From Termitidicoccus mucosus (lineage in GTDB: Bacteria; Verrucomicrobiota; Verrucomicrobiia; Opitutales; Opitutaceae): a stretch of 64,000 bases of DNA. Positions 1,762-62,209 of the stretch are shown piece by piece. The translations under genes were made by a program, and so were the position numbers. The notes under the pieces were generated by a model. The model worked only from the letters and a program-made list of their open reading frames with translations. It made no database searches and was not told where the DNA came from. Numbering within the stretch: position 1 is the stretch's first letter; each line of letters starts with the position of its first letter. The stretch spans positions 3,038,001 through 3,102,000 of the forward strand of contig NZ_CP109796.1 in assembly GCF_038725785.1 (NCBI RefSeq), in the 5' to 3' direction.

Positions 1762-3213
1762 ATGACTATCCGCACCCGCATTCTCCTCGTTTACCTGCTG
1801 ATTGTCGGAGGCGGTTTTTATTATCTCCTCCAGCGCAGCCTCGACGGGCTCGCCCCGCGCTACCTTGAGTCGATGGAGGAATCGCTCGCGGACACCGTCA
1901 ACATCCTCGCCTCCGCCATCGAAGGCGTCACCGACTCCGATGTCATCGACCCGGCGCGGCTCCAGTCCCTGTTCGACGGGGCCTACGACCGCCGCTTCGA
2001 GGCGCTCATCTACACGATGACCAAGACCCGCGTGGACCTCCGCGTCTATGTCACCGACGCCGCCGGACGCGTCATCTACGATTCCGCCGGACGCGACACC
2101 GGCGCGGATTTTTCCACCTGGCTCGACGTCTCCAAGACGCTCCGCGGCGAATACGGCGCGCGCGCCACCCACGAGCGTCGCGGCGACCCGTCTTCATTCG
2201 TCATCTACATCGCCGCGCCGGTGAAATCCCGCGCCGATCCCGCCCGCGCCATCGGCGTCGTCTCCGTCGGCAAACCCACGGCCAGCATCAATGCCCTCGT
2301 CGAGGCCGCGCGCAAACGCATGTTTGTCGCCGGGCTCATCGGCGGCGGGCTGATCCTCGCCGTCGGCATCGCCTTCTCCATCTGGATCACGACGCCCGTC
2401 ACGCGCCTCACCGCCTACGCCCGCGCCGTGCGCGACGGGCGCCCCGCCTCGCTCCCGCGCCTCGCCGGGCGCGAAGTCGGCGAGCTTCGCCAAGCCTTTG
2501 AGGAAATGCGCGCCGCGCTCGAGGGCAAAACCTACGTCGAGCGCTACGTGCAGACCCTCACCCACGAGATCAAATCCCCGCTCTCCGCCATCCGCGGCGC
2601 CGCCGAGATCCTCGCGGAAAATCCCCCGCCCGACGCGCACGACCGCTTCGTCGGCAACATCCGCACCGAGACCGCCCGCGTCCAGCGCATCGTCGACCAG
2701 CTCCTCCAGCTCGCCGCGCTCGAATCGCGCAAGGCCCGCGCCGAATCCGCGCACATCGACCTCGCCGCCATCGCCCGCGAGTGCGCCGCCGCCGCGGAGC
2801 CAGCCGCGCAAGCCCGCGGCATCGCGCTCTCGCTCGACGCCGCGCCCGCGCCGCTGCGCGGCGACAAAAACCTCCTCGCCCAGGCGCTTTCCAATCTCCT
2901 GCAAAACGCGATCGAGTTCACGCCCGCCGGCGGCCGCATCGCTTTCACCGTCGCGCCCGACCCGCAAACCCGCGAGGTCTTCGCGCGCGTCGAGGACACC
3001 GGTCCCGGCATTCCCGATTATGCCGCCGGACGCCTCTTCGATCGTTTCTATTCGCTGCCGCGTCCCGGCAGCGGCGCGAAAAGCACCGGGCTCGGGCTCA
3101 GCCTTGTCCGCGAGATCGCACATCTGCACAGCGGCGAAATCGCCGTCGCCAACCGTCCCGACGGCATACCCGGCACCCGCGCCGAACTGCGCCTGCCGCG
3201 CCGCGCCGTCTGA
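1762..3213 (+). CDS. creC: Sensor histidine kinase, CreC-like
   Basis: Inner-membrane histidine kinase of 483 residues. A first membrane segment (about 5-25) is followed by a periplasmic sensor (about 26-190) containing the CreC-like string DVSKTLRGEYGAR and VVSVGKP. A second membrane helix (about 192-215) leads to a HAMP-like segment, an H-box with His268 in LTHEIKSPLSAIRGAAEIL, and an ATPase domain with NLLQNAIEFTPAGG, DTGPGIPD, FDRFYSLPRP and GLGLSLV. Similarity in order and motif to E. coli CreC is strong over the full length. It should phosphorylate the CreB-like regulator encoded upstream. Confidence 0.88.
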   Translation: MTIRTRILLVYLLIVGGGFYYLLQRSLDGLAPRYLESMEESLADTVNILASAIEGVTDSDVIDPARLQSLFDGAYDRRFEALIYTMTKTRVDLRVYVTDAAGRVIYDSAGRDTGADFSTWLDVSKTLRGEYGARATHERRGDPSSFVIYIAAPVKSRADPARAIGVVSVGKPTASINALVEAARKRMFVAGLIGGGLILAVGIAFSIWITTPVTRLTAYARAVRDGRPASLPRLAGREVGELRQAFEEMRAALEGKTYVERYVQTLTHEIKSPLSAIRGAAEILAENPPPDAHDRFVGNIRTETARVQRIVDQLLQLAALESRKARAESAHIDLAAIARECAAAAEPAAQARGIALSLDAAPAPLRGDKNLLAQALSNLLQNAIEFTPAGGRIAFTVAPDPQTREVFARVEDTGPGIPDYAAGRLFDRFYSLPRPGSGAKSTGLGLSLVREIAHLHSGEIAVANRPDGIPGTRAELRLPRRAV

Positions 3214-3242
3214 TATCATTTCCGCCCGAAATTTATCTTTTA

Positions 3243-3328
3243 GGTAGGGCGAGGCGTCCCGCCGAGCCGCGGCTCAGCCGGAGGCTTCGCCCTACCGTGA
3301 TCAGGTCTATAAAGGGTTCGAAAATGGC
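3243..3328. repeat. Dispersed repeat (GGCGAGGCG...CTATAAA...GGTTCG), copy 1
   Basis: About 85 bases that start GTAGGGCGAGGCG, contain the palindrome GAGCCGCGGCTC and end CTATAAAGGGTTCG. A clearly related copy lies at 54412-54496, more than 50 kb away. The G/C-rich half (3244-3295) folds back on itself, GTAGGGCGA pairing with TTCGCCCTAC. Confidence 0.75.
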
Positions 3329-3967: not shown

Positions 3968-4077
3968 GTAGGGCTCGACCTTGCGTCGAGCCGCAAGCGG
4001 GCTGAGAGGCGGCGGAATCCCTTGATGATTTGGTGCGTTGTCTGGCTGGCGCGGCCTGACGCAAGGTCAGGCCCTAC
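3968..4077. repeat. Composite inverted repeat (GTAGGGC...GACCTTGCGTC...), copy 1
   Basis: Left unit 3968-3992 contains GGCTCGAC/GTCGAGCC and right unit 4053-4077 contains GGCCTGAC/GTCAGGCC. Each folds on itself and the two also pair imperfectly with each other through GTAGGGC and GCCCTAC. The same two units form the core of the MITE-like element at 54248-54384. It occupies the ndk-cysK gap. Confidence 0.75.
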
Positions 4078-16501: not shown

Positions 16502-16548
16502 CCGGAACGGCGTCCCGTCGGGTGCGATTCAAAGTGGTGTCATTCTCT

Positions 16549-16653
16549 CTTTCCTCTTTATTCTTTATCTTTCTCTTTCGTCAGGAAGGGGCTGGGAGTT
16601 CCGAGCGAAGCGAGAAGCCTGACAAGAGGAAAGATAAAGAATAAAGAGGAAAG
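16549..16653. repeat. Polypyrimidine/polypurine hairpin repeat, copy 3 (best formed)
   Basis: Left arm 16549-16585 and right arm 16618-16653 pair almost perfectly over about 36 bp, ending in TCAGG/CCTGA next to a 32-base loop. It lies between lpdA and the potassium transporter genes. With copies at 822-914 and 1649-1751 it defines a repeat family. It may also end the suc-lpd transcript, though there is no clean U-tract. Confidence 0.75.
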
Positions 16654-16754
16654 ATTCCGGCGATGGCACGACTTTGAATTGCACCCCGCCCCGCCAAGTC
16701 CATCCCATTCCGCTAGACGCCGCCGCCGCCATGCGCTAGACACCGGTTCTCCTT

Positions 16755-36301: not shown

Positions 36302-36380
36302 GGAGGGCCGAGCTCCTGCGAGGCCGTTGCCGGAAAACGGTGCGCATGACCGCAACGGCCTCGCAGGAGCTCGGCCCTCC
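36302..36380. repeat. Perfect 29-bp inverted repeat at the start of the GH2 gene
   Basis: Arms 36302-36330 and 36352-36380 are exact reverse complements (outer end GGAGGGCCGAGC), with a 21-base loop. The right arm stops one base before an ATG of the downstream gene. Further hairpins (GGGCTTCGC/GCGAAGCCC near 36423-36442) follow within the probable signal-peptide region. Confidence 0.85.
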
Positions 36381-45511: not shown

Positions 45512-45537
45512 GAGCATTTCCCGTTTAATTTGTCGCA
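45512..45537. repeat. Solo degenerate MITE end
   Basis: GAGCATTTCC...TGTCGCA at 45512-45537 matches the inverted end of the MITE-like element at 54248-54384 at 22 of 26 positions. No second end is visible before the next gene, so it may be a relic. It begins 4 bases after the RND permease stop codon. Confidence 0.6.
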
Positions 45538-45563: not shown

Positions 45564-45668
45564 GGTAGGGAGGCCTCTCCGAGGCCTCCGTGATGAACGT
45601 CCCGAGCACCCATGATATTCCAACCATTTCACCACGCCCGGCGGAGGCCTCGGAGAGGCCTCCCTACC
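45564..45668. repeat. Perfect 27-bp inverted repeat (GGTAGGGAGGCCTC...)
   Basis: Arms 45564-45590 and 45642-45668 are exact reverse complements, each itself containing GAGGCCTCTCCGAGGCCTC. A 51-base spacer lies between. It fills most of the gap between the permease and the outer membrane factor genes; the rest of that gap (45669-45883) holds an AGKDACAT-coding repeat fragment and no clear gene. Confidence 0.85.
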
Positions 45669-53039: not shown

Positions 53040-54245
53040 ATGCCATTTCCGCGCTTCGCCCGCCTTTTTCTCGCCTTGGCTCTTCCCGGCATGCCCGCGG
53101 CAATCTCCGCGCCGGACGATGCGCCGGCCGCCGCCGGACCGCCCCCGGCGGTGACGCCCGAGGAAACCACCGGACTGCTTCGCATCGCGGCCAGACAGCT
53201 CGCCAACGGCGATGCGGAGTCCGCCGAGGCCGCATACAAATACATCCTCGAGAAAAACCATCACGACACCGGCGGCGCCGGGATTCAGGAAGGATTGCTG
53301 GCGCTGGCCCGCGCCTACCGGCAACACGGCGACCGCGTGAAAGCCGTCGCCGTTTATGAAAAACTGCTGGCGGAGCATCCCCATTTTGAATCCGCGCCGG
53401 ATGCCTACCTCGAACTCGGCCGCACGCTGCGCTCGATCGGCGCCTATGACCGCGCGATCGGCAAATTCTACAATGTGCTCCACAGCACGCTGAAGCTCTC
53501 CGGCGAACAGACCGAGCAGTACCGACGCCTGGCGCGCACCGCGCAGTTCGAGATTGCCGAGACGCACTTCGCCTCGGGCGACTATAATGAAGCCGCCCGC
53601 CTCTTCAGCCGGCTCAACCTCCTCGATCTCGCCGTCGCGGACCATGAGCGGGCCCGCTTTCGCGCGGCGATTTCGCTGCTGCGCAGCGGCAACCTCGAGG
53701 CCGCCGCATCCTCGCTCGAGTCATTCATCAAGACCACTCCCGACACCGAGGCCAGCGCCGAGGCGCGCTACCAGCTGGCGCTCGTGCTCGAACGTCTTGG
53801 CCGCGACCAGGAATCCCTGAACACATTCATGGACCTGCTCCGCAACGAGCACGTCCGCAACACCGAGACTTCCCCCGCGTGGAAGGACTGGCAGCGGCGC
53901 ACCGGCAACCACCTGGCGAATTATTTTTATGACAAGGGGGACTATCGCAGCGCGCTGACCGTGCTCAACCGCCTCATCACGCTTTCCTCCGATGCGCGCT
54001 GGCAACTGCCGGTGTCATATCAAACCGCCCTTTGCCACGAACGCCTCCTGCAATATGACAAGGCCGTGGAGATCTACCGTCAGACCGCCGCCCTGCTGGC
54101 AAACGACACGGAATCACCGGCGGAATTGCAGGAAATCGTCCGCATGGCGGAATGGCATATCCGCCATATTCAATGGCTGGATGAAACCAACGGGCGAATC
54201 CGCTCCATCACCGAACCCCAGGGTTCCTCCGGGGCGTCCTCCTGA
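53040..54245 (+). CDS. Secreted TPR-repeat protein
   Basis: A 401-residue protein with a signal peptide (FARLFLALALPGMPAAISA). The mature part has about eight TPR-like helix pairs, such as AAYKYILEKNH, EGLLALARAYRQHGDRVKAVAVYEKLLAEHPHF and PDAYLELGRTLRSIGAYDRAIGKFYN. It resembles BamD/YbgF-type periplasmic scaffold proteins, but no lipobox is present. It should bind partner proteins in the periplasm. It is paired with the proline-rich secreted protein upstream. No substrate can be named. Confidence 0.8.
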   Translation: MPFPRFARLFLALALPGMPAAISAPDDAPAAAGPPPAVTPEETTGLLRIAARQLANGDAESAEAAYKYILEKNHHDTGGAGIQEGLLALARAYRQHGDRVKAVAVYEKLLAEHPHFESAPDAYLELGRTLRSIGAYDRAIGKFYNVLHSTLKLSGEQTEQYRRLARTAQFEIAETHFASGDYNEAARLFSRLNLLDLAVADHERARFRAAISLLRSGNLEAAASSLESFIKTTPDTEASAEARYQLALVLERLGRDQESLNTFMDLLRNEHVRNTETSPAWKDWQRRTGNHLANYFYDKGDYRSALTVLNRLITLSSDARWQLPVSYQTALCHERLLQYDKAVEIYRQTAALLANDTESPAELQEIVRMAEWHIRHIQWLDETNGRIRSITEPQGSSGASS

Positions 54246-54247
54246 TA

Positions 54248-54384
54248 TAGAGCATTTCCTATTTATTCTGTCGCATGTAGGGCGCGACCTTGCGTCGCGC
54301 CGCGGGCACTAAACCGGCCTGACACAAGGTCAGGCCCTACGGGGACATGGTTTATTTACGACAGAATAAATAGGAAATGCTCTA
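54248..54384. mobile_element. 137-bp MITE-like element with perfect 26-bp inverted ends
   Basis: Ends 54248-54273 and 54359-54384 are exact reverse complements (outer TAGAGCATTTCC). If the outer TA pair is a target duplication, the true ends are 24 bp and insertion is of the IS630/mariner TA type. No coding region is inside; the core (54277-54342) is the composite repeat seen at 3968-4077. A degenerate solo end lies at 45512-45537. It begins 2 bases after the TPR gene. Confidence 0.8.
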
Positions 54385-54411
54385 GTATTTTCTTTCAACC
54401 TTGGCCCAAAT

Positions 54412-54496
54412 GGCAGGGCGAGGCGACACCGCCGATCCGCGGCTCAGCCGGAGGCACCGTCCACCTTGATAAACCTATAAATGGTTCGGAAATGAT
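54412..54496. repeat. Dispersed repeat (GGCGAGGCG...CTATAAA...GGTTCG), copy 2
   Basis: Matches 3243-3328 along about 85 bases, including the GATCCGCGGCTCAGCCGGAGGC centre (GAGCCGCGGCTC there) and the AACCTATAAATGGTTCGG tail. This copy has more substitutions in the stem, so the fold is weaker. It lies between the MITE-like element and the REC-HDOD gene end. Confidence 0.7.
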
Positions 54497-54529
54497 ATAA
54501 GGCCCAAACCTCCACCGGGGCATCCGTCG

Positions 54530-56221
54530 TCAGCCTTTTCCCCGCAATTCGTTTTTCAGCCGCAGCACCTTCGCATGGGCCTGCGACATGAATCCGCGCC
54601 AATTAAAGCTGGGGAAAACCCGGCCCCTCAGCACCTGCGCGGCCGGCGTGTCATGGATGTCGGAAGGCAGGGCATCCAGGCACTCGCCGCCGTCTCCGAT
54701 CTGGTATTTGACGCACAGGTATCGGGCCAGCGAGACCACGCCGACGATATCCATGCCGTCGGTGGCCCCCGCCGGATCGTCGACCCAGCGGATCACATTG
54801 AGATAACATTCCGGGAAACGTTTTGCGGCCAGAAACTCGGCCCCGATCTCGCGCACGCTGCTCCCCAGATATCTCCGCTCGCCCTCATGCCGGGCGATGC
54901 GCCGGTTCCGCACATAATTCGTGATCGCGGGATAACTCGCCGGATGGAGGCGCAGCAATATCAACTGCCCCATGTCATGGATCAGCCCCGCGGTATATGC
55001 GACCGGCGTGAGATGGCCCCATTCCAAGGCCGAGCAGATGAACTCCGACATGTGCGCCACGCCCACTTGAAACATCCAGTATCGCTCCCAGGTCACGGGC
55101 TGGAAATGCCGCGCCTCGACCGTGATCATGGAGCGGCACAGCCCCTGAAGCCGCGCGGCTCCCAGCCACCCCACCGCCGCGCGCGGGCTGTCCATCGGGT
55201 CGATTGCCTCCCGGTTGAGATGATTCACGCTGACCAGAATCTGCACCGCCAGTCCCGGATCGCGCGCCACCAGGCGCGAAATCGAATCGAGGCTGGCCAC
55301 GTTTGCCGACACCGCCATCTGGAACGCATCGGCCGCGCTCTCGATCACCGGGCAGGCGTTCATGCCCGCGACATTGTTCATCAGCTCCGCGGTCGAAATC
55401 ACCGGCCCGGCGGAACAATCCGCCGACTGCCACCAGCGGCGGTCGTTCTCCTCGCGCGCCATCCGGCCGTCATCCACCTCCGCCACCGCGGCCCCCTGCT
55501 TGTCCTCGGGCACGCCGCAGAGCGCTTTCAGCACGGCGCAGGCATGTTCGAGCCGCTCGGCGATCTGCGCGCGCTCGATTCCGGCGTCGTCATCCAGCAG
55601 CTTCCACTCGGCCTCGTTGGCCAGGGCGGACAAATGGGCCGCAAACCCCGGAGCGCCCGCCTTTCGCGCCATCGTGATCAAGGCGTCGCCGCGCGTCTGG
55701 AACAGGTTCTCCTCCTTCTGCTCGCGCCAGGCCGCCGCCATCCCGCCCAATGCGTCCGCCAGCCGGCGACGTTCGTCCCGGATTTCCTCAAGCGCGAGCC
55801 CGCCTGTCTGCGCGGCCGCGGCCTCTTCCACCAGCAACGACGCGTGCCATCGGGGATGCGGCAGCTTGCCGATCTCCTGATAGATGGCCTGGTCGTCGTA
55901 GGGCTTGATCAGGTAGTTTTGCGGACGCAGCGCCAAGGCCGCACGCACCGACACCATGTCCGCCGCGCGCGTATAAATCACGATGGGCAACGCGCCGAGC
56001 AATCCGCTGGCCCTCACCCAGCGGACAAAATCCAGCCCGTCCACTCCGCACTCGAGTTTCGGCTCCACAATCGCCAGATCGTATTTCACGCGGCCGACCA
56101 AGCATTGCCAAGCCTCGGACGGCGTGCCAAACGCGTCACAACTGTGCTCGCCACGCACCAGTATGCTCTGGAGCACACGGTGGGCGCGTGGTTGGTCGTC
56201 GAGGAGTAACAGGCGTGCCAT
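54530..56221 (-). CDS. Receiver-HDOD signalling protein with Glu in place of phospho-Asp
   Basis: A 563-residue cytosolic protein. The N-terminal receiver (1-120) has Asp8/Asp9 and Lys106, but Glu53 (VKYDLAIVEPKLE) where the phospho-acceptor Asp normally stands. A helical linker (about 130-260) leads to an HDOD domain (about 285-490) with AVSANVASLDSISRLVARDPGLAVQIL and GLIHDMGQLILLRLHP. HDOD domains act in signalling and often lack the HD metal site; here the HD pair in LIHDMG is kept. The start at 56221 gives the receiver's MARLLLLDD. It is probably linked to chemotaxis or motility by its neighbours. Confidence 0.85.
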   Translation of the reverse strand: MARLLLLDDQPRAHRVLQSILVRGEHSCDAFGTPSEAWQCLVGRVKYDLAIVEPKLECGVDGLDFVRWVRASGLLGALPIVIYTRAADMVSVRAALALRPQNYLIKPYDDQAIYQEIGKLPHPRWHASLLVEEAAAAQTGGLALEEIRDERRRLADALGGMAAAWREQKEENLFQTRGDALITMARKAGAPGFAAHLSALANEAEWKLLDDDAGIERAQIAERLEHACAVLKALCGVPEDKQGAAVAEVDDGRMAREENDRRWWQSADCSAGPVISTAELMNNVAGMNACPVIESAADAFQMAVSANVASLDSISRLVARDPGLAVQILVSVNHLNREAIDPMDSPRAAVGWLGAARLQGLCRSMITVEARHFQPVTWERYWMFQVGVAHMSEFICSALEWGHLTPVAYTAGLIHDMGQLILLRLHPASYPAITNYVRNRRIARHEGERRYLGSSVREIGAEFLAAKRFPECYLNVIRWVDDPAGATDGMDIVGVVSLARYLCVKYQIGDGGECLDALPSDIHDTPAAQVLRGRVFPSFNWRGFMSQAHAKVLRLKNELRGKG

Positions 56222-62061: not shown

Positions 62062-62209
62062 GGTTCCTCGCTATTTTCGATGGTTGGTTTGCTTATTTAA
62101 CCGCAGAGAACGCAAAGAACTCATGGAAAAACGGGATTGTTTCCTGCGCTCTTTGCGTTCTTTGCGGTTAATTTTTGTTGCTTTCAGTCATCGAAAATAG
62201 CGACGAACC
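62062..62209. repeat. Nested inverted-repeat element (148 bp) with CCGCAGAGAACGCAAAG arms
   Basis: Outer arms 62062-62082 and 62189-62209 match at 20 of 21 positions (GGTTC...CTATTTTCGATG). Inside them, 62097-62120 and 62148-62171 pair at 22 of 24 (TTAACCGCAGAGAACGCAAAG). The whole would fold to a long hairpin. It starts 11 bases after the chemoreceptor stop. It has no coding capacity and the shape of a MITE. Confidence 0.75.

Follow-up and report, generated by a model that had tools for sequence, protein, structure and literature searches.

The window, the whole 64-kb stretch of DNA analysed here, corresponds to C1:3038001-3102000 of its source genome (G000; 7.92 Mb, two contigs). Near its right end, a reading frame for a TPR protein (53040-54245) lies upstream of a short element, termed E4, with 4 bp between the stop codon and the start of E4. 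The interval 54246-54500 is a set of nested repeats: E4, with its class 1 REPs, lies within the TATAG end of an older repeat, and that repeat has class 5 REPs of its own. The parts of E4 and of this host repeat are as follows.

54246-54247, no strand: TA of the host repeat to the left of E4, part of its TATAG end (from the empty-site comparison)
54248-54249, no strand: TA, left copy of the target-site duplication; the joined site reads CTGATATAGTATTTTC, as does the unoccupied paralogue in L015
54250-54382, no strand: E4, an IS630-type MITE with a REP-dimer cargo, 133 bp between two TAs (limits from the empty-site comparison)
54250-54273, plus strand: left TIR, GAGCATTTCCTATTTATTCTGTCG
54277-54301, plus strand: GTAG REP unit of class 1, GTAGGGCGCGACCTTGCGTCGCGCC; an identical unit lies beside the RAYT gene
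54316-54340, minus strand: GTAG REP unit of class 1, GTAGGGCCTGACCTTGTGTCAGGCC; an identical unit lies beside the RAYT gene
54359-54382, minus strand: right TIR, 24 bases the same as in the left TIR
54383-54384, no strand: TA, right copy of the target-site duplication (from the empty-site comparison)
54385-54500, no strand: rest of the older host repeat, with a class 5 REP dimer at 54413-54465 (5 mismatches per unit)

An inverted-repeat search recovered the arms 54248-54273 and 54359-54384 as 26 nt, 100% complementary and 85 nt apart. Together with a TA duplication at a paralogous site, these arms confirm the preliminary description of a MITE-like element with perfect ends and a TA border. That description had set the ends at 26 bp, with 24 bp plus a TA duplication as an alternative. 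The alternative proved correct and the 26-bp TIR did not: the TIR is perfect over 24 bp and reaches 26 bp only when the TA is added, E4 proper running from GAGC to GCTC with the TA outside. At 133 bp, E4 is too small for a transposase gene, and both its size and its TIRs are those of a MITE.

The limits of E4 were set by comparison with empty sites. Removal of GAGC...GCTC and one TA from the occupied site leaves the joined sequence given above, letter for letter the same as the unoccupied paralogue in L015, and more unoccupied copies of the host repeat are found in L005 (TTGGTATAGTATTTTC) and L085 (CTTTTATAGTATTTCC); the sequence flanking E4 on the right belongs to a repeat present several times. 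The comparison therefore defines an element of 133 bp (54250-54382) with a 24-bp TIR and a duplicated TA. The sites compared were paralogous, not orthologous, because the region 53500-55000 matched only through its repeats in genomes G001 and G002, among the 40 of 87 and 40 of 158 first-look candidates that were scored. Another element, E5 (L004), also lies inside a repeat, of which unoccupied paralogues include 3213-3269 of the window (93% over 57 bp) and L003. Thus judged on paralogous empty sites, the TA duplication holds for E4, and for E5 it can be fitted if one base of the left TA has changed and the run is one A shorter. A reading of the host repeat's TATAG end as a decayed copy of the TIR found no support, as 47 to 207 of 1000 shuffles scored as well.

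E4 can be folded as one long hairpin. The 137-nt stretch folded as RNA at -78.6 kcal/mol, whereas its shuffles averaged -37.0 (z -10.85) and none of 200 folded as well; folded as single-stranded DNA it gave a z of -10.21 against shuffles. A hairpin of this kind, starting so close to the stop codon of the upstream frame, could be kept whole for a function such as terminator or mRNA 3' end, with the nesting as a side effect. We consider this improbable, given that the host repeat was already present and E4 is an insertion into it, and that an Rfam search of 53900-54700 returned 0 matches over the gathering score.

The core of E4 is a head-to-head pair of GTAG-type REP palindromes, and a dimer of the same family lies elsewhere in the window without TIRs.

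3968-4077, no strand: class 1 REP dimer without TIRs ("naked"), of the same REP family as the E4 cargo

The E4 core had been described as recurring at this second position without the ends. This holds for the REP units, since each core is a head-to-head dimer and the two belong to a single REP family, but not for the spacers, which differ in length and sequence. The further proposal that E4 carries a second repeat as cargo is borne out, the cargo being a GTAG REP dimer of a family with its own RAYT. The RAYT gene (L066; C1:275854-276057) has class 1 REPs on both sides, two units each with at most 4 mismatches. Its protein scored 83.5 bits with NCBIfam NF047646 (REP-associated tyrosine transposase) against a cut-off of 80, and Pfam Y1_Tnp scored 22.9 on the protein (cut-off 23) and 23.8 in a six-frame search. 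REPs of the tested classes flank one of seven Y1 loci; around the other six no tested REP was found within about 1.5 kb, save one 4-mismatch match of another type in L065, so no RAYT was found for the other classes. Beyond one of the REPs in L066 lies GTTTATTGGGAAATGGTAT, which is similar to an end of a second repeat family described below.

In L014-L028, ten class 1 dimers, all head to head, are not enclosed by these TIRs. Flanks of the naked dimers mostly differ, but L025 has one that recurs on the left of the RAYT locus. Because naked dimers have mostly different flanks and a RAYT is accompanied by the same REPs, the class 1 family would appear also to move, or to have moved, on its own; the naked dimers were presumably moved by the RAYT, whose gene has identical REPs on both sides.

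The TIR family is present in many copies. With at most 3 mismatches allowed, the TIR pattern gave 31 matches in the source genome against 0 for the reversed control, and a second TIR variant gave 16 against 0. By hand count, the 31 and 16 matches make up 25 places, and a 26th (L013) came from a DNA search, which yielded at least 71 matches (40 of 76 candidates scored). Census results were obtained for 25 of the 26 places, L244 falling below the script threshold: 20 elements were paired and 5 had one recognised end. TA flanks 13 of the 20 pairs on both sides and 19 on at least one side; among the seven pairs without TA on one or both sides, one is without it on both.

Over an alignment of 132 bp, one copy (C1:237906-238037) matches E4 at every base. 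E5 and E6 have a TIR variant in common, lie at different places and both adjoin class 5 REP repeats. The flanks of class 1 copies are alike in part (seven flank-flank matches among E3-E6), because these copies sit in or near class 5 REP repeats. The identical copy and the variant shared by E5 and E6 support the view that the unit moved fairly recently and took its cargo along. The earlier suggestion of recent or past activity accords with the same identical copy and with the many copies at different places. Among 57 genomes, the source genome included, the 28-base TIR variant (3 mismatches) occurs only in G000 and in the genus-mate G002, where the TIR is found at many places.

REPs of a listed class are held by 20 of the 25 census elements, 17 of them with both units, and the classes are distributed as follows.

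Class 1 (as E4): 14 elements, of which 3 have shrunk and retain a single intact unit; both TIRs recognised
Class 2 (GGAGGGACGGCCTCCG...): 1 element; both TIRs recognised
Class 3 (GTGGCACAGGCACTCTTGCC...): 2 elements; both TIRs recognised
Class 4 (GTAGGGAGGCCTCTCCG...): 2 elements, including that at 45512; both TIRs recognised in the class
Class 5 (GTAGGGCGAAGCCTCCGG...): 1 element (L085); one TIR, the other end being the TATAG end of the host repeat of E4

A count of five REP families in one shell was reduced to four with both TIRs and a fifth with one, because the TATAG end of the host repeat is not significantly TIR-like by the shuffles. Five of the 25 elements matched no listed class. On inspection by eye, L076 proved to be a class 2 element that has shrunk, L246 contains a GGAGTGCGG palindrome, L045 and L057 have CAACAGGYAGGGGCGG in common, and L082 has a short palindrome resembling one in L244. 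The class 4 element in the window consists of two recognised parts.

45512-45535, plus strand: TIR of a second family member; a class 4 REP follows, other end not found
45565-45667, no strand: class 4 REP dimer beside the 45512 TIR

Against one of the eight TIR variants in the census, this end has a single mismatch in 24 bases. It had been described as a solo end; it is indeed a TIR of the family whose far TIR was not found, but it is not merely solo, as a REP dimer different from that of E4 follows it. In G002, results were obtained for 15 of 16 loci, comprising nine with class 4 REPs (five with both TIRs), two with class 1 and four without a listed class, a mix biased by the choice of these loci mostly from E4-region matches.

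What is new here is that a single TIR shell encloses several REP families. Chance overlap of two common repeats might be invoked, since REP dimers of classes 1-6 are common enough for four to lie in the 64-kb window outside these elements. However, a density of one dimer per approximately 16 kb, even raised tenfold for the stretches between genes (an estimate), makes four separate cargoes very unlikely. The occupancy of 20 of 25 elements, 17 with both units, likewise argues against chance overlap, which we regard as very improbable.

Each REP family has its own junctions with the TIRs. Classes 1-4 have few bases in common there, mostly CA and T on one side and CAAA on the other. An outer palindrome, GGCGCGGCAGCGCC, is retained next to the REP in one class 4 element and in the class 5 element; it also lies beside a class 5 REP without these TIRs in L015. 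Similarly, GGGGCCGCTGTTTATT follows the REP in the class 1 cargo of L012 and also follows a REP beside the RAYT. The scarcity of common bases and the retention of these outer sequences are consistent with cargo capture by repair, in which the gap left by IS630 excision would be filled by copying a REP locus with bits of its old flank. We regard this route as quite possible, if somewhat short of probable: no cargo could be matched on both its sides to a donor locus, and the flank on the RAYT side could be a decayed element itself.

REP dimers might instead choose the tips of palindromes, so that any MITE hairpin could serve as a landing site and this TIR family would merely be a frequent target. 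The second repeat family (end TATACCATTTCCCAATGAAAATCACC; 12 matches against 0 for the control) bears on this directly, as by eye ten of its 12 copies contain class 6 REPs (one damaged), one contains class 5 REPs and one a broken class 6-like start. Likewise, PMC3733652 describes GTAG-15 dimers in long palindromes in A. variabilis and GTAG-23 in small ones in T. roseum. Most of the ten naked class 1 dimers in L014-L028, however, have by eye no palindromic wrapper, L025 having one, and 19 palindromes outside the first TIR family have weakly complementary flanks. The flank complementarity score reached 8 in 8 of these 19 against 9.6% of mismatched pairs, a small excess in a mixed set that includes some purely pyrimidine-rich repeats and some high scorers belonging to other TIR families; we place no weight on this weak result. 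We hold targeting of palindromes only as a tentative alternative.

E4 is classed as an IS630-type MITE because IS630-family transposases with closely similar TIRs occur in other Verrucomicrobiota. In the MAG 'Verrucomicrobia bacterium SCN18...', TIRs that differ from that of E4 at 4 of 28 bases (left) and 5 of 28 (right) adjoin a transposase in two frames, the C-terminal piece of which scores 126.4 bits with NCBIfam IS630 (cut-off 100) and 110.6 with Pfam DDE_3. Four Chthoniobacteraceae MAG loci (L149, L172, L196, L199) have a TIR differing from E4 at 2 of 28 bases and, inward of it, an IS630 C-terminus as read by eye. On a contig of Puniceicoccaceae K14, an IS630-like frame is enclosed by two more distant TIRs, which are 9 of 28 and 7 of 28 bases different from E4 and 6 and 5 different from another family variant; a third TIR, 5 of 28 from E4, lies beyond. 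The expected transposase-linked copies occur, with similar TIRs, in other Verrucomicrobiota, but in the source genome none was found. There, nine DDE_3 places were checked and none had E4-type TIRs, and a search with the SCN18 protein gave eight matches, all of the same kind as the DDE_3 places already found. Since no IS630 with these TIRs was found in the source genome, a driver that is extinct or was missed must be assumed; classification as an IS630-derived MITE does not depend on such an element being present alongside it.

Several candidates for the driver were rejected. The IS-A type (L067-L069) has the ends TATAGCATTTCAAATAAAG, the type at L070-L073 has the ends TATACTAAATTCCC and TATAGCCTTTTC, and in L074 the TIR was not matched. 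L075 has two TIR matches, but both belong to the E8 MITE, which lies approximately 0.9 kb from a DDE_3 fragment that scored below the cut-off and was missed by the SCN18 protein search. An IS630 of the searched type with these TIRs was not found in two genus-mates, both represented by incomplete genomes, and the one IS630 match beside a TIR in G002 was an IS-A type element adjoining the MITE, not its driver. In G002, at L120 (G002:C153), an IS630-type element (end TAAAGCATTTCAAATAAAG) adjoins a TIR-bearing element with a REP.

We consider it very likely that E4 is a non-autonomous IS630-type MITE that was moved in trans with a REP dimer as passenger, and that several REP families entered copies of the MITE separately. 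E4 would have inserted at a TA with duplication, carrying the GTAG REP dimer along. An IS630-family transposase, now absent from the source genome or missed in it, presumably moved the whole unit by acting in trans on the 24-bp TIR, and every such insertion would have spread the REP dimer along with the shell. The different cargoes and junctions suggest that REP dimers of several families entered on separate occasions, either inserting into the centre of the MITE, at the tip of its hairpin, or being captured in the course of repair. Because we saw no clean ancestral element that lacked a REP and matched in its inner flanks, the direction of nesting is our inference. Repeated capture of REPs, presumably by one or the other of these routes, is the surprise and is supported by the sequence comparisons. 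A palindromic interior may perhaps help the ends of a short element to meet, a suggestion of our own. The observation that gave rise to this analysis is real, and its reading as an IS630-type MITE with a TA target, a second repeat as cargo and past movement is supported.

How REP palindromes spread is still debated, and RAYT-driven movement has been hard to observe directly. A TIR shell with four or five REP families could provide a second, testable route for REPs, via an IS630-type transposase. Moreover, because the shell stays constant while the cargo changes, these elements would form a natural series for asking how MITEs acquire new interiors.

E4 resembles several known elements in part. 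The IS630 family has been named behind both RUP of S. pneumoniae and the Correia elements/NEMIS of Neisseria (PMC2229807, PMC2817692), which are like E4 in having about 100-160 bp, no protein, TIRs, a terminal TA and stable hairpins. E4 differs from them in that the interior of its family is a REP dimer, belonging to another repeat family, that varies between copies, and in that no driver IS was found alongside it in its genome. The E4 TIR sequence also presumably differs from the TIRs of RUP and Correia/NEMIS. The cargo itself is like REPINs and their RAYTs, with GTAG-tagged units mostly in head-to-head pairs and a RAYT that has the same REPs on both sides. The outer ends and TA duplication of E4 are features of a DDE-type transposon and not of the REP.

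An earlier example of a MITE that encloses a REP comes from Coxiella burnetii. Its QMITE2 is a MITE of 150-190 bp containing a GTAG REP (PMC5896051); it has direct repeats of 7-11 nt where E4 has a TA duplication, and the TIR family of E4, unlike QMITE2 as described there, encloses several REP families. In Anabaena variabilis, GTAG-15 dimers lie in a long palindrome beginning TATA. The relevant section of PMC3733652 reports a single REP family for that palindrome and does not tie it to IS630, whereas the E4 family has several. Titles and opening lines of abstracts, mostly from outside subscription journals, included no paper on several REP families in one MITE TIR, and the accessible portions of PMC3733652, PMC10969869, PMC2817692, PMC2229807 and PMC5896051 describe no TIR family with several REP families.

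A scan with the TIR pattern, taking one genome per species, gave 76 loci; for 18 of these a partner end could be proposed at a distance of up to 420 bp, by a permissive rule that surely admits some chance pairs. A strong internal inverted repeat was seen among those loci in L157, L162 and L195 only (L182 was judged by eye only), and REP-like cargo is therefore not general outside the genus. A single TIR match on a viral contig, with no inverted partner by eye in the next 400 bases, was set aside as chance. L162 and L195, both from betaproteobacterial MAGs, are MITE-like and 149 and 154 bp long, with related TIRs (TAGAGCATTTT...) and a palindromic pair of other sequence inside. These two loci would fit a broader proposal in which IS630-type MITEs are general carriers that have repeatedly captured unrelated REP families, the spread of REPs in these genomes being largely DDE hitch-hiking and not the work of RAYTs; this generalization is conceivable, but we consider it doubtful.

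Further repeats were noted in the course of this work. In G002, L129 and L130 (G002:C270 and C36) have diverged TIRs and a class 1 REP in an apparently repetitive, GC-rich coding stretch. The second repeat family is represented at 36302-36380 of the window, with flanks, and in L224-L235; its members are approximately 144 bp and mostly surround GGAGGGCCGAGCTCC REP dimers. Pyrimidine-rich inverted repeats (TCTTTCCTCTTTATTCTTTATCTTTC and its complement) occur at 824-905, 1649-1751 and 16548-16654 of the window and in L017 and L076. Finally, 62062-62209 of the window contains nested inverted repeats, with GGTTCCTCGCTATTTTCGATG arms around TTAACCGCAGAGAACGCAAAG arms.
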